Origin: a virus
Direction: 5' to 3' (one strand)
DNA length: 35,353 nucleotides
IMG/VR virus record: IMGVR_UViG_3300013018_000009
Location: 1-35,353 of that record
This document shows, piece by piece, positions 16,257 to 31,339 of the stretch. Both the position numbers and the translations under genes were made by a program. The notes beneath the pieces were generated by a model. That model ran no database searches. It had not been told where the DNA came from and worked only from the letters and a program-made list of their open reading frames with translations. Each line of letters opens with the position of its first letter. The first letter of the stretch is position 1.

Positions 16257-17198
16257 TTATGCTGGGTTCCCGTCGTATAATTCTTCAGCACCAGAAAGCA
16301 CCATTTTACCTACAGCTTTGTAGTTACCTAAGTTGAATCCTGTGTAGTACCAGGAGCTCATTTTCAGTAGGTCTTTATCTTTCTGCATCCAGAATGTTGG
16401 ATCTCCCAGAGCAAAAGCACTTCCAAAAAACTGTGGTGAAGTTGCAACGTAAATAACACCTGGTTTAATTACATCACTGTTACTTGTAGTGATGAGTCTT
16501 TTTCCACCAATTTTAAGTTGCTCTACACCGTCTTCAATTACTCTAGTGATTAATCCCCCGACTTCTGTATGATTCCAGCTATAAGCATCGTTTAATGTTG
16601 AACGGTGCATAATAACTGTGTCTGACTTCAATCTTTCTGTATCAATCATATTGAAAAGTTTTGTGAAGTCATCCTTTTGGAAAGTAGAGTTAGTAGATGC
16701 AAGATAGTTACCATTAAGTTTAACAGCACTATTAACGATTTTGAAGAAGTAATCATCTTCCTGCTCCTGCATATCTAATACTACGTTCTGGCGAATGATG
16801 TCAGTGATAGGAATGCGGATGTTCTGCAATTCCATTTCATTTTTTTCAAATACTGGAGAAGCGTACTTTAAAAATGGTATGATGAATTTATCACCAGTTA
16901 TGTATTCTCCGGTAGGTTCACCTCTCATAGTCAGTTTCATAGCATAGGAGTCTGGCTCTCTATCAAGTAACATATACCCTGTATCAGAGTTATCTTGATC
17001 AATCTGATATCTTGGATCCTCAGTTGTTACTCTCTCAAAGCTATCTCCAAAGAAGCGTCTCATGACACCTTCTTCACGGAGTTTCATTCTTACATAGTTA
17101 CTACCAGCAACGCTAGCTTCTTTAATTTTGCTAGGGTCTTCAATAATACTCATAAAGTTTTCGTTGAATTGCTCAACGCTAATGTTATCGAAATTCAT
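16257..17198 (-). CDS. Major capsid protein (HK97 fold)
   Basis: 313 residues with the feel of an HK97-type capsid protein: a helical N-terminal arm (residues 1-28), then FFGDSFERVTTEDPRY, an extended-loop-like section near 70-100, a long central helix region, and a C-terminal strand GNYKAVGKMVLSGAEELYDG typical of the P/A-domain end. KIKEAS at residues 24-29 matches the K-x-A motif found throughout the head block and is the likely processing point, removing 28 residues. The start has AAAAGGAGGAATACATAA before the ATG. It follows the decoration candidate by 27 bp and is followed by a stable hairpin, as expected for the most abundant mRNA. Confidence 0.85.
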   Translation of the reverse strand: MNFDNISVEQFNENFMSIIEDPSKIKEASVAGSNYVRMKLREEGVMRRFFGDSFERVTTEDPRYQIDQDNSDTGYMLLDREPDSYAMKLTMRGEPTGEYITGDKFIIPFLKYASPVFEKNEMELQNIRIPITDIIRQNVVLDMQEQEDDYFFKIVNSAVKLNGNYLASTNSTFQKDDFTKLFNMIDTERLKSDTVIMHRSTLNDAYSWNHTEVGGLITRVIEDGVEQLKIGGKRLITTSNSDVIKPGVIYVATSPQFFGSAFALGDPTFWMQKDKDLLKMSSWYYTGFNLGNYKAVGKMVLSGAEELYDGNPA

Positions 17199-17682: not shown

Positions 17683-18453
17683 TTATGAATTATTCATTAC
17701 GAAATCAAAAATGGGGTTCCCTGAATTAGCAGATGCTTTCTTGGAAAGATCCCCTACATCTAATAAAGACTTTTCAGCGACCTTATCCATAACTCTCATT
17801 TCGACTTCGAATTCCTCTTCATCCATTGAAGCGAATTTTTCTAACTGTTCAGGGATCTCATCAACAGAGATTTGTTCCATCTTTGCCATTTTAATGAGTT
17901 TATTAAAAGCTTTATCCCTTTGTTCATTCTGTCTTTTAATCGAAGCAATCTTTTCTAAACTTTCTTCCTTCTCTCCTTTCAGTTGTTTGATAACTGATGC
18001 GGATTTTTTTAAATCGGAAGCAGTTTTAGTTAGTAATTGGGAGATGTTTGCCACCTTTTCATTTCCCCCTTTCTTGAATTCTTTCAATACTTTTTGTTTT
18101 TCTTTCTTTCGTTTGTTATCAATATGAGCCTTCAACCCTCCTGCAGCAAGCATTGGTATTGCCATTTTTTTTGCAGTTGATAAAGGTTTAGCTGCTGAAT
18201 AATCTTTTGCCTTTTTAAAAGTGTCGCCACCTAAAGCAACATTTTTAGTAGTCTCGAAAGCTTTTCCTATACCAGGAGCATTACTTAAGGTTTTACCGAG
18301 TGAACGATTTGCATTAGAAATTCCTTTTACTTTATTTAAAACTTGTTGATTGACTTTCCTTTTAGCAATATCTTTAGGTAGTTTATGTTTAAATTGGTTA
18401 TACTTTGTTGCCCCAGCCTTTAAAGCACTACCTAATATGCTAGAGTTCCCCAT
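17683..18453 (-). CDS. Scaffold-like head protein with many K-x-A sites
   Basis: 256 residues, lysine-rich, helical. The first 100 residues are basic and glycine/alanine-rich; the rest is coiled-coil-like. K-x-A motifs recur: NEKVA, LTKTA, LEKIA, LIKMA, LEKFA, MDKVA and others, eight by eye, spaced through residues 125-245. A protein just before the capsid genes, helical and full of putative protease sites, behaves like a scaffold that is destroyed on maturation. The ATG at 18453 overlaps the upstream gene by 14 bp and has no clear ribosome binding site, so translation is probably coupled. Confidence 0.6.
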   Translation of the reverse strand: MGNSSILGSALKAGATKYNQFKHKLPKDIAKRKVNQQVLNKVKGISNANRSLGKTLSNAPGIGKAFETTKNVALGGDTFKKAKDYSAAKPLSTAKKMAIPMLAAGGLKAHIDNKRKKEKQKVLKEFKKGGNEKVANISQLLTKTASDLKKSASVIKQLKGEKEESLEKIASIKRQNEQRDKAFNKLIKMAKMEQISVDEIPEQLEKFASMDEEEFEVEMRVMDKVAEKSLLDVGDLSKKASANSGNPIFDFVMNNS

Positions 18454-18838
18454 CTAAGATTTGGCTCGCAATCTTATCTGATAGTTCTTCTACCATTTCT
18501 TCATTACCTTCTTGGCTGAGGAGTTTTTTTCTAAGTTTATTATATTGCTCGTTGCGGACGCCATTTTTAAGTCCGTTCATAGCAATTTCTTTTAGGCGTT
18601 GTTTTGACTCATCACTGCTCTCTACAAGCATTTTTCCTCCGACACCCTGTTCATTTATTTTATCGACATCTTCCTTGTTTGCTTCTTTATTAAGTCCGCT
18701 GACAACATTGTCTATCTTGGAAGCATTCTTTTCTAATTCAGCAACAAAATTATCAACATCGATATCTTTTTCTTCTACGGAGGCGGTTTTTTCTTTTTTA
18801 ATCTGTTTCCACAATTCATCTATTCTTTGTTCGTCCAT
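18440..18838 (-). CDS. Small acidic scaffold-like head protein
   Basis: 132 residues, helical and charged, with K-x-A sites KEKTAS, LEKNAS, NKEAN and SDKIAS. Start ATG follows AAGGAGGGGGAG. It is preceded by the 155-aa acidic protein and followed by the 256-aa scaffold-like protein with an overlap. Short, acidic, coiled-coil proteins in the protease-to-capsid interval are usually scaffold or prohead core. No specific family recognised. Confidence 0.55.
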   Translation of the reverse strand: MDEQRIDELWKQIKKEKTASVEEKDIDVDNFVAELEKNASKIDNVVSGLNKEANKEDVDKINEQGVGGKMLVESSDESKQRLKEIAMNGLKNGVRNEQYNKLRKKLLSQEGNEEMVEELSDKIASQILDGEL

Positions 18839-18851
18839 TTACTCCCCCTCC

Positions 18852-19319
18852 TTAAACGTTATTTACTTCTTCTCCCTGGTCTTCGAAAAACATTTGAATC
18901 TCTTTAGGAAGTCCATCTAATGTTTCATACTTCTGAAAGTTATTATCTCTAACAACTCTCGGATTAGAAAGCAGTTGGAAAGAAGCTAACTTTTCAAAAA
19001 GCTCTTTCTTTTCTGGTGAAGAAAACTTACCAGAAATAGAAGCAACTTTCTCTTTTTGAGCAGAAGATAACTTTCCTCTTAACTCTTCTTCTACTTCTTC
19101 ACTTTCTTCATCACCATCATCGGCTTCGTTATCTTCTGTTCCTTCAATCATTTCTTCTGGATCTTTTTCAGCTTTTGGTTTAGTTTTAGCTTTAGCAACC
19201 TTTTCTAACGCCCTTGCCATAACTTCTTCAGCTAGAGCATCAACTTCTTCAGAAGCGTTCTTTTCCATTTCTTCTTCTTCAGCAATTTCATTTACTAAAT
19301 CTTCAAGTGTACCAGCCAT
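18852..19319 (-). CDS. Acidic prohead core / scaffold protein candidate
   Basis: 155 residues with a strongly acidic centre (about 60-85, rich in E and D) flanked by helices. K-x-A sites are MEKNAS, LEKVAK, KEKVAS and FEKLAS. It lies 12 bp after the protease candidate. Protease, then acidic scaffold, then capsid is the classical order in HK97- and T4-type heads. The C-terminal 40 residues (SNPRVVRDNNFQKYETLDGL) lack such sites and may be the capsid-contacting part. Start ATG has TAAGGAGGTGCC before it. Confidence 0.6.
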   Translation of the reverse strand: MAGTLEDLVNEIAEEEEMEKNASEEVDALAEEVMARALEKVAKAKTKPKAEKDPEEMIEGTEDNEADDGDEESEEVEEELRGKLSSAQKEKVASISGKFSSPEKKELFEKLASFQLLSNPRVVRDNNFQKYETLDGLPKEIQMFFEDQGEEVNNV

Positions 19320-19330
19320 AAGGCACCTCC

Positions 19331-21112
19331 TTAGTTAATAATCTTTTTAATAGCAGTTCCGGCCAGCATATCAACACCTCTACCCAATGATTGCATCGGG
19401 GAAGCGGATGTAACAAATATATTTCCAATATTATTTAATGTATCATATTTTTTGTCAATCTCTTTATATCTATTATACAACTGATCGGTATCATTAATCA
19501 AATCTGAAGTAGATTTTTTTGGTGATACCATTCGGGCCGCTTCTTTTGTTATAACATTGTCATAATTCATTTGACTTAAAGCTTTTTTAATGGCAATCCA
19601 ATCATCTTTTGAATTAGTGGCTCCGATACCTAACATAGCAACTAGGTTGGGGTGCTCTTCAAGGAACTTCATTAACTTGGCATCACTGTCAAAACGACCC
19701 GCGATATCCGATGCTAAATAAGCAGCAGGTACTCCTGCAAAAACTCGACCACCTAAATTAGATGCGGTCTTTTCAAATTCCTTACCTGCTCTTTTCATCT
19801 CACCTAAACCTTTGACGGCGCCAACACTACCGGCGGTCATTACAGGTAATAACCACGGGTGATCTTTGATCTTCTTATCAAGACCTTCTGCATTGTAATC
19901 GGGGACTTGATTTAAGTATCTGTTGTATAAAAGACTGCCAGCAATTATTCCAGGTGTTGCCAGTTGTTCTGGTCTGAATCTCTTTTGTCTGACTTCTTTG
20001 GGTTCTTCTGCTGCCATCTTAATGAGTCTTGGATATAAATACTCTTTGATTGCTGACCTCTCTTTAACATAAGGTATTCCAACTTTAAAGACGTCAAAGT
20101 CTAAATCACCAAATAACGGGTTAAACTTTTTGTTGACTTCTCTTTCTGGAATATCTATATTAAGGATAATGTCGTCAAAGTCATCCGGGTTATGCCCCAA
20201 CTTATTTAAATATATCCTTTGGAATTCTTCCGGTTTTAAAATGATACCTAAAGTTAAAAGAGAAGTTAATACATCATCAATAGGTTTTTCAGAATAAAAA
20301 TCCAAAACCTTATCGGAAATGTTTTTTTCTCTTTCTTTGATATCAGAAAAACCCCTCATTAATTTAGCCGCAATCTGTCCGGCATCATTGGAGATAGTTT
20401 CACCTGGGATCTCTTTTTCAATATCCGCTTTCTTTTTAAAGCCATTCAATACAGAAGCGACCTTTTTTAATGACTTAGCGGTCCTGTCCGCACCAATGTA
20501 GACAAAACTGATATCAAAAAATCTCGGTTTCTTATTTATCATATAAACTTTTCTGCCGTCAGGCAATACTTCACCTTTATGATATTTTATATGATCACAG
20601 TAATCGTTGGTAGTCTTGGCGACATTACCACAGATACTGCAAACATCATATGGAACCTTACATCCCATTGAAACATCCCACATCTTATCATTGTCGATGT
20701 CTGATGCAATCTTAGGGGCTTTATCCCTATCAATCCTAACAATAAGTTCTACCCTATGCATTCTCGGATTGAAGTGGGCAAACATTATATCCCCTTTAGA
20801 TTTTTTCGGGTCTTTATTTTTATGATGAGTAAATACATATCCGAATTCTTCGAAGGTCTTATAGTGATCTAATATTTCTTGTTCTTCAAAATAATCAGAG
20901 TTAACATTGTCTCCCCAAATCTCACCACTGCTTACAGCAGAAACTAAAACGTAAACGGAGTCTGGGTCAGACTCGATATTATCTTCAATGTAGTTTTTAA
21001 TCTCATCAGAGATTGTACCAGAAGCCACTTTTTCAAGAGAATCAGAAGGGTCGATCTCCTGTAGTGAAAATTCTTCATCGTTATAATTAAAGTGTATTGT
21101 TTTTTCTATCAA
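19331..21112 (-). CDS. Prohead maturation protease candidate with zinc-finger insert and long C-terminal extension
   Basis: 593 residues, TTG start after AAAGGAGGGGTCAAC. Residues 53-205 look like a herpes/HK97-type prohead serine protease: VLVSAVSSGEIWGDNVNSDY, then THHK with H96/H97 as histidine candidates, VELIVRID, and WDVSMGCKV with S148 as the likely nucleophile (V-S-M-G is the usual context). A cysteine insert follows S148 (C158-x2-C161 and C172-x-H174), probably zinc-binding. The remaining 380 residues are unlike a protease. They carry K-x-A sites (FKKKA, LIKMA, FEKTA, TKEA) and the basic block EEPKEVRQKRFRPEQLA at 369-385. LEKVA30 and LKKVA219 bracket the protease domain, suggesting self-processing. 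Protease identity is by motif and gene order. Confidence 0.65.
   Translation of the reverse strand: MIEKTIHFNYNDEEFSLQEIDPSDSLEKVASGTISDEIKNYIEDNIESDPDSVYVLVSAVSSGEIWGDNVNSDYFEEQEILDHYKTFEEFGYVFTHHKNKDPKKSKGDIMFAHFNPRMHRVELIVRIDRDKAPKIASDIDNDKMWDVSMGCKVPYDVCSICGNVAKTTNDYCDHIKYHKGEVLPDGRKVYMINKKPRFFDISFVYIGADRTAKSLKKVASVLNGFKKKADIEKEIPGETISNDAGQIAAKLMRGFSDIKEREKNISDKVLDFYSEKPIDDVLTSLLTLGIILKPEEFQRIYLNKLGHNPDDFDDIILNIDIPEREVNKKFNPLFGDLDFDVFKVGIPYVKERSAIKEYLYPRLIKMAAEEPKEVRQKRFRPEQLATPGIIAGSLLYNRYLNQVPDYNAEGLDKKIKDHPWLLPVMTAGSVGAVKGLGEMKRAGKEFEKTASNLGGRVFAGVPAAYLASDIAGRFDSDAKLMKFLEEHPNLVAMLGIGATNSKDDWIAIKKALSQMNYDNVITKEAARMVSPKKSTSDLINDTDQLYNRYKEIDKKYDTLNNIGNIFVTSASPMQSLGRGVDMLAGTAIKKIIN
19959..20008. 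repeat. 50-bp direct repeat, copy 2 (in protease candidate gene)
   Basis: Partner of 15930-15979, 49 of 50 bases identical, same reading frame. The flanks diverge at once on both sides, so the duplicated unit is short. Confidence 0.9.
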
Positions 21113-21126
21113 GTTGACCCCTCCTT

Positions 21127-22023
21127 TTATCCATATACTTTTTGTTTAGCTTCTTCGAAAGTCATGTTACTATCTTTCATTGTTTTGGCTAAGTTAACAA
21201 TTTGGTTTTTATAAGCCACATTCTCTCTGGCCATATCATATCCTGCAGTACCTAAGTTCTCAGATACATCTCTAGCAGAGTTAAGAATGTTGTTAACACC
21301 AGAAATTATTCTGTCTTCAGCACCGTTATCTCTTCTATTGAAACTATCCTGGATAGAAGTGACATCTTTAATATTATTAAAGTGCATTGTTCCAGTTCCA
21401 CCAGCTTCTATTTGTTTCATGAACGATTTGACAGCAATAGGATGCTTGGCTAAATCAGGAGCAGCATCATAAAAGAATTTGAACTGTTGCTTTGACTCTG
21501 GATTATCTTCAAATTCCGGGTACCTTCTAATGAAAGCTTCCCAATATTTTTCTTCCTGGTTATTCAATTTGTTTCTAACAGCCTGGTATAAATCTCCGCC
21601 ACCTTTTGCCCCTAAAGAAACTGCACCGGCTCCAGCCATACTCATACCTAACTTCTTGGCGATATCCTTAATCATTTCTCTATCCTCAGGGGATATACTC
21701 ATCATTGATTTAAGTTTATCTTTAGCACTGGCTTTTTTACCCAACATACCTCCGAAACGAGCTTCATCATCTAATTTCTGGTTCATTCTTTCATAATAAC
21801 CTTTTTCAGATTTAAGCTTGTCTCTTTGATATTTATTCATTCTGGCATTTTGGATACCTTTTACAAGTAAACCGGCACCCCCAGCCGCTGCTGCACCTTT
21901 AAGTCCTTTTTTCACTGAGGGTTCATTCTTTTTAATATAATTGACGGTGGCATCTGTCGCATCATTTAATCTGCGGAAAAGTTTTTCGGCTTCTTCGTTT
22001 TTTAAATTAAAATCAAAAGCCAT
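21127..22023 (-). CDS. Head-block protein with one glycine-rich membrane-like segment
   Basis: 298 residues. A basic helical N-terminus leads to a glycine/alanine segment (GLKGAAAAGGAGLLVKGI, about 40-57); a second follows at about 125-145 (LGMSMAGAGAVSLGAKGGG). Between them is GKKAS, the only strict K-x-A site. The C-terminal half is an ordered helical domain with YWEAFIRRYPEFEDNPES and FFYDAAPDLAKHPIAVKSF. It directly precedes the protease gene. It has fewer processing sites than its neighbours, so it may persist in the virion. Portal identity was considered and not supported: it is too short and has no wing/stem pattern. Confidence 0.5.
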   Translation of the reverse strand: MAFDFNLKNEEAEKLFRRLNDATDATVNYIKKNEPSVKKGLKGAAAAGGAGLLVKGIQNARMNKYQRDKLKSEKGYYERMNQKLDDEARFGGMLGKKASAKDKLKSMMSISPEDREMIKDIAKKLGMSMAGAGAVSLGAKGGGDLYQAVRNKLNNQEEKYWEAFIRRYPEFEDNPESKQQFKFFYDAAPDLAKHPIAVKSFMKQIEAGGTGTMHFNNIKDVTSIQDSFNRRDNGAEDRIISGVNNILNSARDVSENLGTAGYDMARENVAYKNQIVNLAKTMKDSNMTFEEAKQKVYG

Positions 22024-22034
22024 TTAGCCACCTC

Positions 22035-22769
22035 CTATTCGATTTCTTCTAATAACTTTTTAGCTTCCTCATCGGACATTCCTTCGATTGTGCTAACTAA
22101 ATTACCTAGATCTTCGTTTTCTTCTTGCTCTTCCAATTCTGAAATTTTACCTTTAAGTTCTGGGGAAGACTGCGCAGCTTCCTTTAAAATCTCGCCAGCT
22201 TCCTCTTCTGTGATGGAATCCAGGAAGTTATTAACTTCTGCTTCTTTAATCATCTCTTCGTTATATACACCAATAGCTTCATCTAACACTTCTGGCTCGA
22301 TACCTGTTACAGAAGCAATCTTTTGTAAGCCGTCAATGTAGAGTTCTTCAGCTGATGCTTGTTTTTCTTTTTTCTTACCTAAAGCTTTATCTGGTCTTAG
22401 TGCGCCCATAACTCCGCCAAAAGCGGCGCCTTGTCCGGCTAATCTTTTTAATTGATTGGCCGAAACATTGCCACCGGTCAACTTAGTACCTAATGCACCT
22501 AATCCAGCTGCACCAGCACCTGTAGAAGCTGCACCAACTAGAGCACCTTTACCTCTTTCTTTTAAAGCTTGTTTCTGTTCATCTGATAATTTGTCAGCGA
22601 GGGCGGCACCTCCGTAACCTAAACCTAATCCAGCAGCTGCAGCAGTGGCTATTTCCTTTTTAGAAAGTTTGCTATTTATGGGGGATCCCCCTCCTGGTAA
22701 AAGACCCGCAACATTCGGGTTAGCAGCAACTTTTTCCATACCTAATTCTGTAATTCTATTAAAATCCAT
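22035..22769 (-). CDS. Tagged internal head protein (15-residue LGMEKVA tag)
   Basis: 244 residues. Residues 1-15 (MDFNRITELGMEKVA) are the shared tag, ending at A15. A glycine-zipper region follows (about 45-125, with AAAAGLGLGYGGAALAD and GAGAAGLGALGTKLTGG). The C-terminal 110 residues are acidic and helical, with KEKQAS, LQKIAS, IKEAE and LKEAA sites. After processing the product would be a short, glycine-zipper peptide, as expected for an internal head protein or a membrane-active ejection protein. Start ATG has AAGGAGGAATACATAA before it. Confidence 0.6.
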   Translation of the reverse strand: MDFNRITELGMEKVAANPNVAGLLPGGGSPINSKLSKKEIATAAAAGLGLGYGGAALADKLSDEQKQALKERGKGALVGAASTGAGAAGLGALGTKLTGGNVSANQLKRLAGQGAAFGGVMGALRPDKALGKKKEKQASAEELYIDGLQKIASVTGIEPEVLDEAIGVYNEEMIKEAEVNNFLDSITEEEAGEILKEAAQSSPELKGKISELEEQEENEDLGNLVSTIEGMSDEEAKKLLEEIE

Positions 22770-22789
22770 TTATGTATTCCTCCTTAAAA

Positions 22790-22818
22790 AGAATTTATGC
22801 GAGAGTTACCCCTCGCAT
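22790..22818 (-). terminator. Weak hairpin between two internal head protein genes
   Basis: ATGCGAG (22797-22803) pairs with CTCGCAT (22812-22818), 7 bp with an 8-nt loop. On the minus strand it is followed by AAATTC and then TTTTT, so the U-run is 6 nt late. An attenuator or mRNA processing site is more likely than full termination. It occupies most of the only sizeable gap (57 bp) in this block. Confidence 0.5.
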
Positions 22819-22826
22819 TTATTTAA

Positions 22827-23468
22827 TTACTCAGTTAAAGCGTCAATGCCAGCTTCAAATAATGCATCAAATGTTTCTTCATCTAATCCATAAGCTGCAG
22901 CTGTTTTTTGCTTTTCTTTTCTCTTTTTATTAGCATAAGCACCAGCAGCACCTAATCCAGCTAATCCAGCGGCACCTAATCCAGCTTTACCTTTGTTGTT
23001 TTTGAGAGCTTGTAGAGCAGAACTACCAGCGGAACCCAAAGCACCTGCACCAGCTTTAGCAGCGTCGCCAGTAAAGCCGGCTACATTTTTAGCACCTCTA
23101 GCAACACTTCTTCCACCTCTTGCTGCCATATTACCTGGATTTTTAAGAGCTTCTTTTAATGCTGCTTTTGTTCCTACACTTTCAGGAGCATTTTTAACAA
23201 AGTCATAAACACCTTTGCCTGCAACGCCAGCACCTGCAGCACCAGCACCTCCACCAATCAATGCAGCTAATTGTTTCTTAGACATTCCGCCATTTTCTTG
23301 CTCTTCAGCAGCCTTTTCTAAAAAGTCATGCAGTTCCATAGCATCTACACCATGTACTCCAGCTACCTTTTCTAAAGAATCAGCATAATCATTAAGACCT
23401 TCCTCATAAGCAACCTTTTCTAAACCTGCTTCTAATACCATATTGATTTCTTCTTGTGTTAAATTCAT
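22827..23468 (-). CDS. Internal head protein, paralogue of the 23489-23938 product
   Basis: 213 residues. N-terminal 55 residues are nearly identical to the next gene upstream: GLEKVA20, SLEKVA36 and FLEKAA54 spaced 16-18 residues apart. The middle (about 68-180) is a long glycine/alanine-rich stretch (IGGGAGAAGAGVAGKG, then GAAGLAGLGAAGAYANKK). The C-terminus repeats the paralogue's ending, FEAGIDALTE against FEKGLEALTE. If all three N-terminal sites are cut, short peptides of about 16 residues are released. Start ATG has AAGGAGGAATACAAA before it. Confidence 0.55.
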   Translation of the reverse strand: MNLTQEEINMVLEAGLEKVAYEEGLNDYADSLEKVAGVHGVDAMELHDFLEKAAEEQENGGMSKKQLAALIGGGAGAAGAGVAGKGVYDFVKNAPESVGTKAALKEALKNPGNMAARGGRSVARGAKNVAGFTGDAAKAGAGALGSAGSSALQALKNNKGKAGLGAAGLAGLGAAGAYANKKRKEKQKTAAAYGLDEETFDALFEAGIDALTE

Positions 23469-23488
23469 TTTGTATTCCTCCTTGTTTT

Positions 23489-23938
23489 TTATTCAGTTAA
23501 AGCTTCTAAACCTTTTTCAAATAAATAATTTAAAGTGTTGTCATCGATAGATGCTTCTTTTTTCTTTTTCTTCGGTTGGAGTGCACCTGCCCCCGCCCCT
23601 ATTAAACTCCCTGCAAGAGAGCCACCTGCTCCAGTTATTGAACTTGCACCGATAGCTTCGCCAACATTAAAATCTGAATCTTTTAAAGCTGAAACTAACA
23701 TTGGAACTCCGCCAGCAACTCCGCCAGCAATTCCACCTCTCCGACCCCATTTTTTCCATTTAGGATCTTCAACATCTTCTTCGGCAACCTTCTCTAAAAA
23801 GTCATGTAAATCCACAGCGTCTACACCATGTACCCCAGCAACTTTTTCTAAAGAGTCAGCATAGTCATTAAGTCCTTCTTCATAAGCAATCTTTTCCAAA
23901 CCAGCATTTAAAATCATATCTAATTCTTCCTGAGTCAT
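23489..23938 (-). CDS. Short internal head protein, paralogue of the 22827-23468 product
   Basis: 149 residues with the same build as its neighbour, but a shorter glycine-rich core (about 68-120: GGIAGGVAGGVPMLVSAL, then AGGSLAGSLIGAGAGAL). Sites are GLEKIA18, SLEKVA34, FLEKVA52 and KKKEA129. The duplication is visible in DNA: 23795-23940 matches 23297-23465 with mainly third-base changes. Start ATG has AAAAGGAGGTACAT before it. Function unknown; likely virion-internal. Confidence 0.55.
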   Translation of the reverse strand: MTQEELDMILNAGLEKIAYEEGLNDYADSLEKVAGVHGVDAVDLHDFLEKVAEEDVEDPKWKKWGRRGGIAGGVAGGVPMLVSALKDSDFNVGEAIGASSITGAGGSLAGSLIGAGAGALQPKKKKKEASIDDNTLNYLFEKGLEALTE

Positions 23939-23950
23939 ATGTACCTCCTT

Positions 23951-24793
23951 TTAAGAGTATAATCTAGTTCCGGGGTGCTTTGACTTTTTCACCTCGAAAG
24001 GATTATCTGTTTTTTTATTCTTTATCTTATCATAATGCTTTTTACTTTTGCTTTTGGTCTCGCCTACAAGTGATGCAACTTCCATAGTTTTAAGTGGGTG
24101 TTTAGCCATCTGCAGGGCAATACCAGCAGCTTTTTCTAAACGTTCGTTCAATTCATCTAATCTCGACTTAATTTTACCATAGCTTGCAACCTTTTGCAAA
24201 AACTCATTTTCCTTATCTACAAGAAAATTCACCTCTGATATGTCAGGAATATTTTCTTCTGATGCAGACTTAATTAATTCGTCTGGTGCACCAGCTTTTT
24301 TAATGGAATAAGCAACTATCTTAGGGTTGTTATTTTGCAACTTGGATTTAATCAACTTCACTAAGTGTGGTTTCTTTTCCATTAATTTGACTTCTAGATC
24401 TGATTTTTCCCTCTGCATATTGCCTATCAATGATTTTAGGTCTTCTATATTAATTGTTTCTTTTTCTTCCTCTTCATCATTAATTGTATAATAGGAATCA
24501 TCAAAGCTCAAATCCGGACTTTCAGTTTTCACATCGGTCTCGATTTGGATGCCTTCAATGTTTTTAGGATCAGCAACATCGAACTCTACTGTCTTATCAT
24601 CTGTAGCCTTAAATAACTTAAGGAATACCTTGACATTAGCCTGTTGGGCGATTCTTGCAATTTCTTCATTATTTAGTTCCTCCCGTTTAGCTATTTCCGC
24701 TATTATATCCTCCAAAAGATTTTGATTGTGATCCTCTCCCACTTTTCGAAAATAAGTTTGAACCGCTTCTTTGCTCAAGTTTTGGTAGTTCAT
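23951..24793 (-). CDS. Head-block helical protein with K-x-A sites
   Basis: 280 residues, acidic to basic along its length, helical, without the glycine zipper of its neighbours. An N-terminal site SKEA10 is followed by LQKVAS near residue 203 and LEKAAG near 220, with IKKAG and IKSAS in between. The C-terminal 45 residues are very basic (KSKSKKHYDKIKNKKTDN) and could contact DNA. The start ATG has GGGGGT 6 nt upstream, inside the 84-codon ORF it overlaps by 107 bp. Confidence 0.55.
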   Translation of the reverse strand: MNYQNLSKEAVQTYFRKVGEDHNQNLLEDIIAEIAKREELNNEEIARIAQQANVKVFLKLFKATDDKTVEFDVADPKNIEGIQIETDVKTESPDLSFDDSYYTINDEEEEKETINIEDLKSLIGNMQREKSDLEVKLMEKKPHLVKLIKSKLQNNNPKIVAYSIKKAGAPDELIKSASEENIPDISEVNFLVDKENEFLQKVASYGKIKSRLDELNERLEKAAGIALQMAKHPLKTMEVASLVGETKSKSKKHYDKIKNKKTDNPFEVKKSKHPGTRLYS

Positions 24794-24941
24794 TTTTTAC
24801 CCCCTTTTTGTATTCTGATTTTATTTTAACATTTTTTGGTTTAAATTTGAAATCTGGAAACTTATTTTTAACCTTTTCAATTGGTTTGATTTCATTAGCC
24901 AATTTTTCCATTCCTAAATTTGTGAGATAATCTTTGTTCAT
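24687..24941 (-). CDS. Short tagged head protein overlapping the next gene
   Basis: 84 codons. Residues 1-15 (MNKDYLTNLGMEKLA) are the shared tag with A15, after a strong AAGGAGGTAACC site. The remainder is basic (KNKFPDFKFKPKNVKIK) and then low-complexity serine/glycine where it overlaps the next gene in another frame. The 107-bp overlap is by far the longest in the window. It may be a real tag plus basic peptide, with the last 30 codons accidental; or a frameshift near the A5G5TA6 run may join it to the 280-aa gene. Confidence 0.5.
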   Translation of the reverse strand: MNKDYLTNLGMEKLANEIKPIEKVKNKFPDFKFKPKNVKIKSEYKKGVKNELPKLEQRSGSNLFSKSGRGSQSKSFGGYNSGNS

Positions 24942-24951
24942 GGTTACCTCC

Positions 24952-25635
24952 TTAATACAATAAAGTATTACCTTGTCTTAGGTATCGTTCTCTATCTTCG
25001 GTTTGTAACTTTAACTTATCATGGAGCTTTTGTTTTTTGGTGTATTCCGGTTTTAATTTCTTCTGCAATTTCTTACCTAAACCAGCACCCAATGTTCCAC
25101 CAGAAAGTGCCCCGATTCCAGTTGATAATGGAGTGTTTAGATTTTTTAGTTTGGATAAACCAATACCTGCCAACCCACCAGCTACACCACCACCTAATGT
25201 TGCTCTCGTGGGTAATTTATTATTCCTTTCAACTCTCTTTTTGTATTCTTTATCTTCTGGGGTTTCGTTTAACTTATTTTGTAACTGTTTTAGTTTATTA
25301 TCTTTATCTACAGGGGTCTCATATTTACCATAAGCTCTAGACATTAGATATTTATCTTGACGATGAGGAACATTTTTCAACCAGTCGTCATTGTTGATTT
25401 TTTTATCAACCTCTTTCCACTGAGGAAGAATTTCTTCTTTCCACTTTTTAAAATCCTCTAATGGTTGTTCATCACCCATTTCCTGAACTACCCTTTTTAA
25501 ATGATCTTCTTCATCAGTGATGTCACTTTGATAAGGCCATTTATGGTGATTGGGATTTAATAGTCCTCCAGCTGCCGAACCATTAGCATCCGCTATTTTC
25601 TCCATACCTAAATTCATTACCACTTCTTTTATCAT
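24952..25635 (-). CDS. Tagged internal head protein sharing a module with the ferritin fusion
   Basis: 227 residues. The tag MIKEVVMNLGMEKIA ends at A15, which supports the ATG at 25635. A helical module follows (QPLEDFKKWKEEILPQW near 55-75), then a glycine zipper (GGVAGGLAGIGLSKLKN, about 145-185), and the end DRERYLRQGNTLLY. The helical module, zipper and ending match the C-terminal part of the EncFtn fusion (26251-27300). This makes it the untethered, tagged version of that module. Soluble N-terminal part, membrane-like zipper. Confidence 0.6.
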   Translation of the reverse strand: MIKEVVMNLGMEKIADANGSAAGGLLNPNHHKWPYQSDITDEEDHLKRVVQEMGDEQPLEDFKKWKEEILPQWKEVDKKINNDDWLKNVPHRQDKYLMSRAYGKYETPVDKDNKLKQLQNKLNETPEDKEYKKRVERNNKLPTRATLGGGVAGGLAGIGLSKLKNLNTPLSTGIGALSGGTLGAGLGKKLQKKLKPEYTKKQKLHDKLKLQTEDRERYLRQGNTLLY

Positions 25636-25636
25636 T

Positions 25637-26239
25637 TTAAATTTTCCCCCTTAACTTCTTCCCAATTAAATTACCAACCACAGCTCCACCTAATGTACCT
25701 AATGCTTTCTTTTTCTTAGAATGTTTCTTTTCGTCATCGACTAACTTATTAGATGCAAGATAACCGCCAATACCACCGAGTGCTGTACCAGGAGTGGCTA
25801 TTGATTTGAGGTTTTGTTTTCTTTTATTCCTTTTTAAAGCATCCTGTAATCTTGCTCGCTGCCCATCTCTGGCATAAGAATTAGTTGCAGAACCAGTACC
25901 ATAAGTAGTTTTCTTTTCCGTTCCCGCCGGAATAAACCCGAATAATTTTTTCTTTGTGGTTTTAACACCTTTAGGAAGTTTCTTTTTAGACATCGATGCT
26001 GCTCTGCTGGCAGAATTAACATCAGATTTAACTTTGTTTCTGATGTAATCATTCATCTTTGCCTGCTGACCCGGTTTTAAATTGTTAAGTTCAATGCTTT
26101 TCTCACCGAGTATCTTTCTGACTTGATCTGGATTGTTTTTCTTAAACTTTTTCATGTATTCTTTTTCAGCTCGGTTTAGGGCCAATTTTTCTAAAGAGCC
26201 TTCTTTGATCAACTGCACTAACTTTTCTTTATTTGTCAT
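25637..26239 (-). CDS. Basic internal head protein with LEKLA propeptide
   Basis: 200 residues, strongly basic (runs such as MKKFKKNNPDQVRKI and KKLPKGVKTTKKKLFG). The N-terminus MTNKEKLVQLIKEGSLEKLA ends in the shared motif at A20, slightly longer than the 15-residue tag. The C-terminus has a short glycine zipper (GTALGGIGGYLASNK and GTLGGAVVGNLIGKKL). High lysine content fits DNA binding in the head. Start ATG has AGGAGGGTAAT before it. Family not recognised. Confidence 0.55.
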   Translation of the reverse strand: MTNKEKLVQLIKEGSLEKLALNRAEKEYMKKFKKNNPDQVRKILGEKSIELNNLKPGQQAKMNDYIRNKVKSDVNSASRAASMSKKKLPKGVKTTKKKLFGFIPAGTEKKTTYGTGSATNSYARDGQRARLQDALKRNKRKQNLKSIATPGTALGGIGGYLASNKLVDDEKKHSKKKKALGTLGGAVVGNLIGKKLRGKI

Positions 26240-26250
26240 ATTACCCTCCT

Positions 26251-27300
26251 TTAATAGTCTAAGTTGTGGCCTTGTCTTAAGTATCTTTCTCTGTCATAAA
26301 GGTTATTTTCTCTTTTATTGACTACTCCTTTTTTATTGTACTTCGCTTTATCTTTTACAAATTTTCTAGCGATGGGACTAGTTGCTAATCCTCCAACCAC
26401 TCCCGTTGCTAAACCACCCACGCTACCGTAAAGTGCTCCAGTACCTGCTCCTGCTAAACCCTTTAATATTTTACCGGGGGTAGATTTACCTTTGGAAGAA
26501 CCTACATAGCCACCAATTCCTAAACCGGCTAACGTCCCGAGGCCAGCACCACCTATACCTGTATTACTTATGTATTCACTTGAATGTTGTGATTTGCCTT
26601 CGGGTAACCATTTGTCATTGGGATATTCTTTTCTTTTAGCTCTTTCTAATTTCTTTTTTAATCCTTGGTATTTACCATCACTGCGTACGGGGTTTTTATG
26701 GTTTTCTTTAATATATTCTTGAAGTTTTTGTTGCAGTTTCCTCTGCCTTTCCCCTTCTGCTTGTTCGATTAAACTCTCAAATTTTTGAACCTTCGGATCT
26801 GACAAAACTTCCTTTTGAAAATTATCCCACCTAGGTTTAATAGTGTTTTTCCATTTATTAAATTTATCTAACTCGCCTTGGTTGATATAATCATTTTCTA
26901 ATTCTCGTTTCAACCCAGCTTCTTCGGTTTCTACATCGGTTAAGTATTCAGTTTCACCCCAATGAGTTTGGTGTGCCAACTTTTCTCTCAACGCCGCTTC
27001 CTTTTTAAGACCATCTTCATTATATTCTGCCATCAGTTCTCCATCCTGGTATAGATATTCATCAATCATATCAGACCACACTGGAGAAATTCTTCTAAGG
27101 TATTCAATACCTATTAATGCATGTTCAATTTCTTCGTGAGCATTATGTAAAACAAACTTTCTTACTAAAGGATTATCTGTCGCTGCTGCTCTTTGGTAAT
27201 ACCAATCGACTGCTTCTATTTCTTCGATTATGGATTGTAGTATTCTGTGTATATCCATATCTTCATTTGAAAGTAATTCATGTGGTTCATGGTAATTCAT
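26251..27300 (-). CDS. Encapsulated-ferritin (EncFtn) domain fused to a phage head-protein module
   Basis: 349 residues. Residues 1-95 closely resemble bacterial encapsulated ferritins: YHEPHELL, then EEIEAVDWYYQRA and HNAHEEIEHALIGIEYLRR. From memory of the Rhodospirillum rubrum EncFtn, ligands E32, E62 and H65 correspond here to E27, E57 and H60, with W33/Y34 and entry-site E26/E29 also kept. Such proteins oxidise ferrous iron and work inside encapsulin shells. Residues 99-110 hold KKEA and REKLA sites, which would cut the ferritin domain free. The C-terminal 240 residues (FNKWKNTIKPRW, glycine zipper, DRERYLRQGHNLDY) match the tagged 227-aa protein. Start ATG abuts the helicase stop after AAAGGAGGAAAA. 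The ferritin call is firm; packaging in the head is inference. Confidence 0.88.
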   Translation of the reverse strand: MNYHEPHELLSNEDMDIHRILQSIIEEIEAVDWYYQRAAATDNPLVRKFVLHNAHEEIEHALIGIEYLRRISPVWSDMIDEYLYQDGELMAEYNEDGLKKEAALREKLAHQTHWGETEYLTDVETEEAGLKRELENDYINQGELDKFNKWKNTIKPRWDNFQKEVLSDPKVQKFESLIEQAEGERQRKLQQKLQEYIKENHKNPVRSDGKYQGLKKKLERAKRKEYPNDKWLPEGKSQHSSEYISNTGIGGAGLGTLAGLGIGGYVGSSKGKSTPGKILKGLAGAGTGALYGSVGGLATGVVGGLATSPIARKFVKDKAKYNKKGVVNKRENNLYDRERYLRQGHNLDY

Positions 27301-28824
27301 TTATTTTCCTCCTTTTGCCAACTTCTCCATGCCTAAATCTATCATTGCTTGTTTTTTCATGTTTCCTCCCATTTGATCGTACACCTGTGATTGTAATGCT
27401 TTTTTCTTTTCGGCAACACTGTCTATCCATTCTTCAACAGAGCGGTTGGGTTTTCTAATGGAACTTAAAAACTTCTTCTCGGGTTCTACTGCTAAATACT
27501 TTTTAATATTTACTTTATCGGCTTTCGAGTTTGCTCTGACCCCTCTACCAATCGCCTGTTTGGTTACTTCTGGGTTCCAGTTAGGGTCAAAAATAAACTC
27601 TTTATCTACATTAGGTAATGATATTCCTTCCTTACCTGTAGGTGATGTAACGAAAGCTTTTGTTTTATTTTTCTTAAAGTTTTCAATCTGTTCATCTTTA
27701 TCTTTCTTTCTCATACCACCGGATATTCTAGATGACGAAACACCTTTTGATTTCAAGGCATCTTGGATAATATCTGCTCCATGCTGGTTATAGTTAGAAT
27801 AAATCATAGACCCAAATTCGCTGTCGTCGTCTTTTAAATCTTCTAATAACCTCTGGGCTTTGGCCGATATTTCGTGACCTTTATCTCCTTTAAGTATAGC
27901 ACCTGGATTGTTTGATGCAACTCTGGCATTTGCTATTGAGCCAAAGAAAGACACGCTATCTCTCTTATCTGGAACAATGTCTCTTTTAACAGCCTTCCTT
28001 ACTGGCCCGGGCAAATCATTCCAGGCATACTTGTAGGCTTTCATTTGTTCTTTAGTCATTGGTACCCTAACTTTTTCTTCTTCAACCTCTGGTAAATCTT
28101 GATCTCCTCGTTCATAATCGAAATAATTTTGGAGATATTCCCTAACTTCATCATCGGGGTCAAATCTTTCTCCTACTGTTTGTTTCTTACCTAAACCTAT
28201 AAAACTTAAAGGACCGAACTTTTTAGTTTCCGGTTTAACATACTTTTTATTAAATTCCGTTTGGTTGTATTTATCTTCACCTTCGATTAAATTAATCAAA
28301 GATGCAACATCACCGGGAGCATTATTCATTGGGGATGCCGTTAAGAAAGCTTTATTTTCCATATTAGGCGACACTTCTTTAATAGCTTTATAAAGGTTTG
28401 TGTTTTGATTTCTAGCGTTGTGTGCCTCATCTACTACCATTGAATTGGAATTTGCCGAATACTTCTCAGGATCTTTTGAAAACAAAGAGTTAGACACTAT
28501 TACATAATCGGCGTTGGGGTCAACTTCTTCACTTCCGGAGTCGATAACTTGAACCGAACTGTCAGTAAATTTATTTATTCCTTCTTTTTCAAAATTTGTT
28601 TTTAAACTTGCTGGAACAACAACTAAAGTCTGTCCAGGTGATTTTTCTTTTAATTTTTCCATAGCGGCTATACTGGTTAAGGTTTTACCTGTACCAGTGC
28701 CATGGGCCACAACCAAAGAATTGTTATCTAAAAGTTTATTGACGGCTCGTTTTTGATAATCTCTTAAATTGACATCATCTTTTAATGCTGCTTCTTTTAA
28801 TAACTTCTTTAATACCTTCTTCAT
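27301..28824 (-). CDS. SNF2/superfamily 2 DNA helicase-translocase with a C-terminal head tag
   Basis: 507 residues from the ATG at 28824 (GGAGGTG 5 nt upstream, stop of amylase overlapping as TGATG). Walker A GTGTGKT is at about 42-48, DEAH at 132-135, FLTASPMNN follows as motif III, and the second RecA-like domain ends with SPTGKEGISLPNVD and QAIGRGVRANS (motifs V and VI). This is a SNF2-like ATP-dependent DNA translocase. The N-terminus KKLLKEAALKDD carries a K-x-A site. The last 19 residues are MKKQAMIDLGMEKLAKGGK, a complete copy of the 15-residue tag plus KGGK. It is likely packaged in the head and may act on phage DNA during or after ejection; that is inference. Tight coupling with both neighbours. 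Confidence 0.85.
   Translation of the reverse strand: MKKVLKKLLKEAALKDDVNLRDYQKRAVNKLLDNNSLVVAHGTGTGKTLTSIAAMEKLKEKSPGQTLVVVPASLKTNFEKEGINKFTDSSVQVIDSGSEEVDPNADYVIVSNSLFSKDPEKYSANSNSMVVDEAHNARNQNTNLYKAIKEVSPNMENKAFLTASPMNNAPGDVASLINLIEGEDKYNQTEFNKKYVKPETKKFGPLSFIGLGKKQTVGERFDPDDEVREYLQNYFDYERGDQDLPEVEEEKVRVPMTKEQMKAYKYAWNDLPGPVRKAVKRDIVPDKRDSVSFFGSIANARVASNNPGAILKGDKGHEISAKAQRLLEDLKDDDSEFGSMIYSNYNQHGADIIQDALKSKGVSSSRISGGMRKKDKDEQIENFKKNKTKAFVTSPTGKEGISLPNVDKEFIFDPNWNPEVTKQAIGRGVRANSKADKVNIKKYLAVEPEKKFLSSIRKPNRSVEEWIDSVAEKKKALQSQVYDQMGGNMKKQAMIDLGMEKLAKGGK
27316..27360 (-). other. Tag-coding segment with its own internal start and ribosome binding site
   Basis: Within the helicase gene, the tag codons (27360-27316) begin with ATG and are preceded by GGGAGGAAAC (27370-27361), a good ribosome binding site at proper distance. 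Reading from here gives a 19-residue peptide ending at the helicase stop. The next codon after that stop is the ATG of the ferritin fusion, in the same frame. So one TAA separates tag from ferritin. Confidence 0.6.
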
Positions 28825-29885
28825 CAATTCACCTCCAGCTTATAGGATTGTCTTTCAACAGTTACTTCATTGAATGTTCTTTCATCTAAACTATTATTAA
28901 TGTATAAAGTATAATTACCTCTTTCGGCGACATATAAGTCGTTGTCAGTGTGTGCGACAACAGGATATTCTTCGGCAAAATATTTTCTAGGTTTAATCAA
29001 TTCATCTATTTTATCTTTGAGTTCGTATTCAAAGTAATCTTCCCAGAAGACTACCGCTGGCTCTTTCTGGAACAAGATATAAGCATACGCCAGTTCTTTA
29101 TTATTGATTATGGGTTCACTTCTTTCGACGTCATGGTTGGAAACAAAATTAACCCTATTAGAGCTGGTCCCTAATGCTTTCATTGAAGATTTTGGATTCA
29201 TACACATTTCCTTCAATTTATAAAACAATGGAAAATTAAACAACGGTAGATCGATGTAATCAGTTAACGCCTCTAGTAAAACATCGTTTCCACTCCAGTA
29301 TTCCCCAACCATAAAATTATTGAATGAGTTAAAAAAATCTTTAACGAAATCCCAACGCATTTCCTTTAAATTGTCTAACCTAAAATTATCAAAACCGATA
29401 TCCTTTAACCAAGTGGCCCATTCGATAAGACCTTTTTTCATATATTCATTGTCATTATAATAACAAATAGTTTCACCAAAAGAACTCCTGGTGTTGCACC
29501 CTCCACAATCTCTGCAGAAATGTTTATAATCTTTTTGAAACAACGAGCTGTCAAACTTAGTGTATGTATCTTTATCTAAACTTGGGTTATATTCTTTTTT
29601 ACCTCCAAGCATATGCCCCATCACAAGATCAGCCATAACGTTGATTCCTTCATAGTGGAATTTATCAATTAAATCTACCAGTTCTTCTTTGGTGCCAAAT
29701 TTAGAATCGAGATTATAATGGTCCTTTATATCATAGCCCATCGAGTCATCACCGGCCATCCCCCTTGAAGGTGGAGGTAACCAGATATCAGTAAACCCTT
29801 TTTCGGCGATCGCGCCAGTTAAAAATGATAATTCATTGTACCAGTCAGAAGGGCAATCCCAATAAAATCCCTGTAGTATTAGCAT
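28824..29885 (-). CDS. GH13 alpha-amylase-family glycoside hydrolase
   Basis: 353 residues from the ATG at 29885 (a GTG at 29888 overlaps the previous stop; no clear ribosome binding site, so coupled). The order of GH13 blocks is intact: LILQGFYWDCPSDWYNEL at the start, DIWLPPPSRGMAG, region I ADLVMGH (G replaces the usual N), region II FRLDN with nucleophile D171, region III MVGEYW with acid E195, region IV VSNHD with D252, and a short beta C-domain (LYVAERGNYTLYINNS). It hydrolyses alpha-1,4-glucan bonds in glycogen or starch. No signal peptide, so it acts inside the cell or the virion. A cysteine group (C124, C127, C130, C141) sits in the small B-domain. No head tag. A metabolic gene within a phage head operon is unusual. 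Confidence 0.9.
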   Translation of the reverse strand: MLILQGFYWDCPSDWYNELSFLTGAIAEKGFTDIWLPPPSRGMAGDDSMGYDIKDHYNLDSKFGTKEELVDLIDKFHYEGINVMADLVMGHMLGGKKEYNPSLDKDTYTKFDSSLFQKDYKHFCRDCGGCNTRSSFGETICYYNDNEYMKKGLIEWATWLKDIGFDNFRLDNLKEMRWDFVKDFFNSFNNFMVGEYWSGNDVLLEALTDYIDLPLFNFPLFYKLKEMCMNPKSSMKALGTSSNRVNFVSNHDVERSEPIINNKELAYAYILFQKEPAVVFWEDYFEYELKDKIDELIKPRKYFAEEYPVVAHTDNDLYVAERGNYTLYINNSLDERTFNEVTVERQSYKLEVN

Positions 29886-29887
29886 CA

Positions 29888-31339
29888 CTAACCACGATCG
29901 TTTTCATATTCTCTGATTATTCGCTTTAATTTTTCTGTCATCTCATCATCTCTCCTTGGAGAAAATGTAGTTATAACCGCTTCGTTTTCTCCCTTTAAGG
30001 CGACATTGGCTTTCTTCATTCTTCTTGCTAATTCACCAATAGTTCCTCCGCCAGCTGCACCTAATAAAGTGTTTCTCGTTTTGTTATCTTTATTTTTTGT
30101 GAGTTTGTTGGCGGCAAAACCTCCAATACCCGCACCTGCTAATCCAGGGGCATATCTTTTAGCATCTGATTTAAAATTATGTTTCCGGGTTCCGAATTCT
30201 CCGGTGCGTTTGTTTTTCTTTAGGTCGATATAGTCAGCTGCTAGTTTTTCGATGGTGGCCTCTTTTTCTTTACCTCTAACTTTATCTCCTAATGTAGCTC
30301 CTAAAGCCCCGCCAACCATTAAACCGCTACCACCTAATGTAACATTACTCATTAAGTGGTCTTTTTTTCGACTTTTCATTAATTTTTTTATACTCTTTTC
30401 AACTTCTTTTTTATATTCAGGGTGATTTAATTCTTTTGCTTGTTGGCTCATTCCTTTAAAAGTATTAAAATAAGGTCTCATTGTTTTATCGTATTTTTGG
30501 TTTAATTTCTTAGCTCCTACTAACCCTAATCCTGCACCGGCTGCTGCACCAACCCCTAAACCAATTTTGGTAGAATTGTCTTTAACCCACTTTTTAGTTT
30601 TGTCTAATTTTGATTCTTCTTCAGCAATCTTGTTCATGCCAAGTTGTACAAAGGCATTCTTTTCTTTGTTTTTAATTTCATCGCCCGCAGCAGCTCCGAA
30701 TAAACCGCCTGCACCTGCTCCGAGACCACCCAAGACGGCATAATTTTTTAAGTCATCTTTTTTCCTTTTTTTAATCATATCTTTCATATAACCCTCAGTC
30801 TTTTTGTTTAATTTTTGACCTTCTCTTCCTAAATTGTTGCCTATATCTCTCAATTTATCATAGGCTTCAAAATAAGGTTTATCGAGATTAGTCAGTGTTT
30901 TGTTTAATTTCTTAGCTCCCGCTAACCCTAATCCTGCACCGGCTGCTGCACCAACCCCTAAACCAATTTTGGTAGAATTGTCTTTAACCCACTTTTTGGT
31001 TTTGTCTAGTCTTGATTCTTCTTCAGCAATTTTGTTCATGCCAAGTTGTACAAAGGCGTTCTTTTCTTTTGGTTTCTTTAAAGCTCCGACACCGGCACCT
31101 AAAATTCCGCCACCGGCACTACCTATAGCACCACCCATAATTCCCGAATGGACCATTTTATTTAACATAAATGGGTCATCAGTATCTGAATTTATTGCCG
31201 ACAATAAAGCAGCGGCAGGTGCTAAACTTTTCATCCCTACATCAGAACCTTTCAAACCATATTCTACCGCATTTTGCAATCTGGGGTGCGACTTTCTTTC
31301 CGCCTCTTTTATCAAAGTCTTCAATATTTCTTTTTTCAT
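29888..31339 (-). CDS. Polyprotein-like head protein with tandem tags and glycine zippers
   Basis: 483 residues. The N-terminus MKKEILKTLIKEA ends in a K-x-A site at 13. Two copies of a 56-residue unit follow, each opening with the tag KEKNAFVQLGMNKIA, then KKWVKDNSTKIGLGVGAAAG and a glycine zipper. Linkers are lysine-rich helices. A further double site, KEKEAT/IEKLAAD, begins the last third (YAPGLAGAGIGGFAANKL). If every site is cut, the protein yields four or so zipper-containing fragments. Membrane-active ejection proteins or internal core proteins are plausible roles. Start ATG has ATAGGAGGATTTAAA; it follows the terminase by 11 bp. Confidence 0.6.
   Translation of the reverse strand: MKKEILKTLIKEAERKSHPRLQNAVEYGLKGSDVGMKSLAPAAALLSAINSDTDDPFMLNKMVHSGIMGGAIGSAGGGILGAGVGALKKPKEKNAFVQLGMNKIAEEESRLDKTKKWVKDNSTKIGLGVGAAAGAGLGLAGAKKLNKTLTNLDKPYFEAYDKLRDIGNNLGREGQKLNKKTEGYMKDMIKKRKKDDLKNYAVLGGLGAGAGGLFGAAAGDEIKNKEKNAFVQLGMNKIAEEESKLDKTKKWVKDNSTKIGLGVGAAAGAGLGLVGAKKLNQKYDKTMRPYFNTFKGMSQQAKELNHPEYKKEVEKSIKKLMKSRKKDHLMSNVTLGGSGLMVGGALGATLGDKVRGKEKEATIEKLAADYIDLKKNKRTGEFGTRKHNFKSDAKRYAPGLAGAGIGGFAANKLTKNKDNKTRNTLLGAAGGGTIGELARRMKKANVALKGENEAVITTFSPRRDDEMTEKLKRIIREYENDRG
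30500..30667. repeat. 168-bp tandem coding repeat, copy 2
   Basis: Nearly identical to 30902-31069, offset 402 bp (134 codons), in frame. It encodes a tag plus helix plus glycine zipper. Most differences are silent or conservative (R to K, A to V), so the duplication is fairly recent. Confidence 0.9.
30902..31069. repeat. 168-bp tandem coding repeat, copy 1
   Basis: Partner of 30500-30667. Includes the tag codons 31069-31025 and the sequence encoding GLGVGAAAGAGLGL. Confidence 0.9.

Follow-up and report, generated by a model that had tools for sequence, protein, structure and literature searches.

A tag-punctuated phage gene that probably encodes a precursor of several head-internal peptides

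The open reading frame at positions 29888–31339 (minus strand) of the window, by which we mean the whole 35,353-nucleotide stretch of phage DNA analyzed here, probably encodes a tagged precursor from which the prohead protease frees four head-internal peptides that stay with the DNA. Each of these small, mostly membrane-like peptides is preceded by a tag with an apparent protease site, and a single gene thereby probably supplies the head with several peptides. In the mechanism that we propose, the N-terminal tag would bind the scaffold or core, as the internal tags probably would too, and the chain would be drawn into the forming prohead. There, the phage's T4-gp21/assemblin-type protease would cut after the Ala of a hydrophobic-x-K-x-A motif, with cutting at KEKxA being less sure. 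The tags of 6–13 residues would thus be trimmed off to release four small, basic, glycine-zipper-rich peptides, and at double sites such as KEKNA-FVQLGMNKIA the tag would be cut at both ends, leaving clean peptide ends. The released peptides would be retained with the DNA, would most likely enter the host alongside it, and may insert into, or cross, the cell envelope. Scaffold binding, cleavage itself, the scissile bond, ejection and a role at the membrane are steps that we infer, and those of ejection and an envelope role are a guess prompted by the glycine zippers. Such chains may originate by the fusion of adjacent tagged cargo genes or the duplication of tagged modules, and fusions would be harmless because the protease separates the parts again at the cutting site.

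The ORF is uninterrupted and encodes 483 amino acids. It starts with an ATG that has an AGGAGG 5′ of it, and inspection by eye found this combination only at the start of the ORF and none ahead of the internal tags. Its parts, in order of translation, and the two copies of the direct repeat found by a mechanical search (spacing 402 nucleotides) are as follows:

31301..31339, minus strand: N-terminal tag MKKEILKTLIKEA, residues 1–13; predicted capsid-targeting propeptide, ending L-I-K-E-A
31070..31300, minus strand: segment 0, residues 14–90; one glycine-zipper-like stretch; in neither sister phage
31025..31069, minus strand: double site 1, KEKNA + FVQLGMNKIA, residues 91–105; hydrophobic-x-K-x-A
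30668..31024, minus strand: segment A, residues 106–224; two glycine-zipper-like stretches; basic, net charge +8
30623..30667, minus strand: double site 2, KEKNA + FVQLGMNKIA, residues 225–239
30272..30622, minus strand: segment B, residues 240–356; paralogue of segment A; net charge +13
30239..30271, minus strand: double site 3, KEKEA + TIEKLA, residues 357–367; unchanged between the window and its two sisters
29888..30238, minus strand: segment C and stop codon, residues 368–483; glycine zipper 2TM, PF05433 at residues 398–436
30898..31111, minus strand: direct repeat copy 1, 214 nucleotides, 88% identical to 30496–30709
30496..30709, minus strand: direct repeat copy 2, 214 nucleotides, 88% identical to 30898–31111

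A sequence-only reading of this DNA had described two 168-bp repeats with a period of 402 bp, each opened by KEKNA-FVQLGMNKIA, and these are present as claimed. The 168-nucleotide core begins at the KEKNA codons and corresponds to codons 91–146 and 225–280, with seven bases and six codons differing between the copies, four of the six codons silently. The 44-nucleotide tag sequence occurs twice in the entire window, versus zero occurrences expected. The repeat unit is the full 134-residue module, the first halves being near-identical and the second halves diverged yet homologous (score of 98 versus a maximum of 53 in 300 shuffles). The same reading had placed a third double site before the last segment, which is indeed there and reads KEKEA-TIEKLA, and its glycine zippers are borne out by the 483-residue protein passing the Pfam gathering cut-offs for both PF13441 (32.3 versus 28.9 bits) and PF05433 (30.9 versus 24.2 bits). 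As predicted, the released segments would comprise about 77–119 residues with a net charge of +2 to +13, and hydrophobic-x-K-x-A sites are few within them. An AlphaFold model of the whole product was uninformative (pLDDT 34) and was discarded; tblastn of the ORF against 50,697 phage records gave zero matches, and a search of IMG/VR found no relative of segment 0. The ORF contains four hydrophobic-x-K-x-A sites versus 1.8 expected, a number reached by 10% of shuffles. Taken alone, the number of sites in this K- and A-rich protein is not unusual, and our case is therefore built on their placement and on the relatives of the phage. The predicted sites lie between domains, and the predicted cutter is encoded by the same phage.

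Across the window, the motif is concentrated in head proteins. The 15 head-side proteins contain 46 hydrophobic-x-K-x-A sites versus 11.3 expected from shuffling, a set that excludes an alpha-amylase-like gene inside the block which has zero sites, whereas the 13 tail-side proteins contain one versus 4.5 expected. Altered motifs (K to R or E, A to G or S, or shifted spacing) occur in the head proteins at chance or lower, and neither the L/I-x-E motif of T4 nor the S/A-x-E motif of SPN3US is enriched in them. The residue that follows the motif Ala is Ser at 16 of 49 sites. The earlier proposal that each tag is bounded by two cleavage points holds best for its LGMNKIA half, which is the predicted site of the lineage; the KEKxA half is less well supported, with six occurrences versus 0.5 expected, three of them in ORF 29888–31339 itself, and hence few independent cases. 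Across the phages of the lineage, sites are densest in the genes at positions −2 and +1 to +3 relative to that of the protease, and their density in tail genes is low. A DNA scan of viral contigs for LGMEK[hydrophobic]A returned essentially chance matches except for the phage's own relative, and a narrower pattern gave a single match, which was unrelated. We also considered the N-terminal INKIA of an amidase in phage G003 as a tag and rejected it, given its location at what we take to be the start of the amidase fold itself; in this protein, the match to Pfam begins at residue 8.

The proposed cutter and its presumptive structural substrates are encoded together:

16257..17198, minus strand: major capsid protein (phrog_2522 major head protein); predicted propeptide ends KIKEA (residue 28)
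17683..19319, minus strand: three core proteins resembling scaffolds; 543 amino acids with 12 hydrophobic-x-K-x-A sites
19331..21112, minus strand: prohead protease, the proposed cutter; L-x-K-x-A at residues 26–30 and 215–219, flanking the catalytic domain

An AlphaFold model of the protease (mean pLDDT 83) matches T4 gp21 with a Z score of 10.5 and an rmsd of 2.9 Å over 129 residues, followed by herpesvirus proteases (Z 7–9.6) and MCE-domain proteins (Z of 6.0 or less). Foldseek alone also ranked gp21 first (E 0.02), and a profile search matched phrog_18299, head maturation protease (1.5e-11). Judged by this model, the phage encodes a prohead protease of the T4 gp21/assemblin fold. Among 60 distinct homologues on viral contigs, the motif lies shortly ahead of the catalytic domain, at residues 20–45, in 49 (2.8 expected), and shortly behind it, at residues 205–290, in 56 (8.8 expected), and it is almost absent inside the domain. 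In unselected alignment columns at the N-terminal site, K is found in 33 of 35 sequences and A likewise in 33 of 35. A genome scan for relatives of the protease yielded two distant ones only, one of them on a Desulfovibrio contig. Of 31 related major capsid proteins, nearly all have a K-x-A around residue 23. Based on the enrichment in head proteins, the bracketing of the protease, the position of K-x-A in the capsid protein and the density around the protease gene, we infer that hydrophobic-x-K-x-A is the processing signal of this phage lineage. Scaffold-like genes of two other phages (L172:11712–12542 and L179:11682–12392) contain AGRIMARGFxDExxKLA, which closely resembles the tags on the cargo of these two phages (GFADELVKLA); the cargo tag may mimic a segment of the scaffold.

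Two sister contigs, G001 and G002, whose terminases are 99–100% identical to that of the window, carry a short form of the ORF, comprising the N-terminal tag, one module and segment C. G002 has an A+C form and G001 a B+C form, whilst the window has A, B and C together with its private segment 0. Segment A matches the one module of G002, and segment B the one module of G001, in each case with 97% identity. The N-terminal tags of the sisters, MKKEILRVLIKEA and MKKDILKVLIKEA, stand directly ahead of a different segment than does the tag of the window. DNA homology to both sisters is lost at 31298, right after the N-terminal tag, and is regained at 31027 (module A) and 30625 (module B), each of which is the first base of the Ala codon that ends FVQLGMNKIA. 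As read from these alignments, the pieces appear to have been shuffled and fused among related phages exactly at the tags.

Other genes of the head block offer further examples of predicted tagged cargo:

21127..26239, minus strand: further predicted head cargo genes; N-terminal tags in seven of eight (ELGMEKVA, EAGLEKVA, NAGLEKIA, QNLSKEA, NLGMEKLA, NLGMEKIA and EGSLEKLA)
26251..27300, minus strand: second tag-punctuated fusion, three genes downstream of ORF 29888–31339; EncFtn-like domain + LREKLA + tail HQTHWGETEY...
27301..28827, minus strand: SNF2-type helicase; predicted processing tags at its two ends, LLKEA near residue 13 and MKKQA-MIDLGMEKLA at the C terminus

The short N-terminal tags of the lineage are common to otherwise unrelated head cargo, and they end in a motif that is also present in the capsid protein, the scaffold and the protease itself. 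The alpha-amylase-like catalytic domain encoded at 28824–29888 (minus strand) sits amid the tagged block and is itself without a tag. The encapsulated-ferritin-like (EncFtn-like) domain (98 bits) occupies the front of its gene, with a predicted cleavage site at its end; it is followed by a different tail in the sister phages, and it may be a ferritin-like protein that travels inside the phage head. The tail found in the window is 100% identical over 244 amino acids to a separate tagged gene of G002 (39666..40448).

In other phages, one and the same tag is found on unrelated payloads (L151, L172 and L191), and tandem tags occur in L160, a distant phage. There, one ORF has MDKATAIFEKLA at its start and TDKATYVFEKYA internally, and its second part resembles a separate gene of L167 that starts with MDKAELVFQKYA. 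Another L160 ORF consists of three fused parts, two of which are copies of one module; in L165 and L166 these parts are a pair of separate genes, and one junction of the fusion retains a Met. We report only pairs of fused and separate states that were checked by eye, since an automated search was made noisy by broken terminase and protease genes on several contigs. The tags, the motif, the protease fold, the break points and these separate and fused states are what can be read from sequence and its predictions. They bear on the earlier suggestion that the segments were once separate tagged proteins, which other tag-punctuated ORFs favor by matching separate tagged genes in relatives; modules A and B, however, are paralogues that arose by duplication and not two unrelated proteins. 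It had also been suggested that relatives be searched for the segments as separate genes, and such genes were found for the tail of the EncFtn gene and for both fusions of L160, whereas for ORF 29888–31339 itself we found single-module forms only and no segment as a stand-alone gene.

Several further genes deserve mention in their own right. A tagged module with a RHELTH (HExxH-like) stretch is duplicated in L160 (3792–5783) and single in L165 (4972–5472), and the adjoining module contains a nucleotidyltransferase-like GS...DSDID stretch. L191:7998–8534 has the tag TYWELMTKRA, which resembles MKTYQEFIAEA of T4, and a weak LigT/2H phosphoesterase likeness below the Pfam cut-off; it is a possible injected counter-defence enzyme. 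Outside the head block, L017:514–2514 (G001 40514–42514) encodes a 666-residue protein that contains nine hydrophobic-x-K-x-A sites and matches no family. A sigma-factor-like gene (3261–4031, minus strand; sub-threshold Pfam match to sigma-70 region 3) is located among the tail genes of the window. Lastly, L021:18607–19344 (G003) encodes an amidase with an S-layer homology domain, a hint that the host of that phage bears an S-layer.

Glycine zippers are frequently found in tandem, and the repeats could be a duplicated structural domain of a single, uncut multi-pass head or membrane protein, in which the tag is just a linker between glycine-zipper hairpins. The near-chance motif count of the ORF is in keeping with this idea, which we nevertheless regard as unlikely, given that the same motif ends N-terminal tags on unrelated payloads, that throughout the lineage it brackets both the protease and the propeptide of the capsid protein, that homology to the sisters breaks at the Ala of the tag, and that the EncFtn tail exists both fused and as a tagged gene of its own.

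Alternatively, the product might be cut, but as scaffold or core material comparable to T4 gp22 and gp67, with most fragments leaving the prohead and no peptide being ejected. T4 core proteins are cut into several, mostly departing fragments (PMC9026906), a precedent that also qualifies the earlier remark on the rarity of phage head polyproteins, which is fair for tandem cargo chains; moreover, the densest sites in the window are those of the scaffold-like genes. The segments of our ORF, unlike these multi-site proteins, are basic, zipper-rich and contain few internal sites, and every one has its own tag, as cargo proteins do, so we rate this explanation as quite improbable. We give still less credence to an assembly artifact. 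As the window is a metagenome contig, the two-module form could conceivably be a chimera of A+C and B+C strains present in one sample, and both single-module alleles do occur in the sister contigs. Against this, the join is in frame, the period is precisely 402 bp, the copies differ mostly by silent changes, segment 0 with its further tag is unique to the window and found in neither sister, and L160 has independent tandem-tag ORFs. A precursor that the prohead protease would separate into its parts remains our preferred reading.

A wider proposal, for and against which we would wager evenly, is that a broad, mostly uncultured lineage of phages uses a portable tag of ~10 residues, ending in hydrophobic-x-K-x-A, to load varied cargo into its heads, and that fusions give rise to polyproteins that fix the ratio of the cargo. 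If so, tag-loaded cargo would include an SNF2 helicase, a ferritin-like domain, a phosphoesterase-like enzyme and membrane peptides, and cargo genes could fuse and split freely, as any fusion would be undone again by the protease of the head. This would provide a testable rule for which proteins are carried in the heads of the lineage and delivered to the host, and would allow many head genes of unknown function to be predicted to encode injected proteins. In the open-access literature that we searched, which leaves most subscription journals outside it, we found no description of K-x-A prohead protease specificity or cleavage, or of tandem capsid-targeting tags. Tandem tags would explain why the fusion of cargo genes is harmless, and they supply a natural model of how one gene can load multiple proteins.

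Known relatives are Salmonella phage Arash and Vibrio phages D69, D148 and D181, whose capsid protein and protease are 25–26% and 33–43% identical, respectively, to those of the window. Their head proteins have the same motif, and no glycine-zipper tandem-tag ORF was noticed in the 37-kb stretches that were inspected. Herpesvirus assemblin, with the same modeled fold as the protease described here (Z 7–9.6), cuts after Ala with Ser as the next residue, a habit that resembles the Ser preference after K-x-A in the window (16/49); we know of no cargo tags in the assemblin systems.

Ejection proteins of phiKZ and SPN3US are processed by gp175 and gp245, respectively (PMC10052503 and PMC9026906). 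There, too, head proteins of large phages have propeptides with several sites, and the protease is processed at its own C terminus. In contrast to our phage, cutting is after S/A-x-E, most SPN3US propeptides comprise 111–254 residues, and each protein has a gene of its own; the sections consulted describe no tandem tags.

The best analogy is with phage T4, whose internal proteins IPI–IPIII have a capsid-targeting sequence that binds the core and is removed by gp21 in the prohead, the payload remaining with the DNA (PMC9026906). When we inspected the sequences of IPII and IPIII, both started with MKTYQEFIAEA. As in T4, an N-terminal tag of ~10 residues that ends in a prohead protease site is common to different payloads, and the protease, as modeled, has the gp21 fold (Z 10.5). 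Both termini of T4 Alt undergo trimming (PMC9026906), much as we predict from its sequence for the SNF2-type helicase. The two systems differ in that the site is hydrophobic-x-K-x-A rather than the L/I-x-E of T4, and in that one chain here has several tagged cargoes. With Glu motifs not enriched and hydrophobic-x-K-x-A enriched, the phage would work in a T4-like manner and yet fall outside the Glu-specific class. By this analogy, the simplest account is that ORF 29888–31339 works like the capsid-targeting propeptides of T4, using K-x-A and with multiple cargoes per chain.
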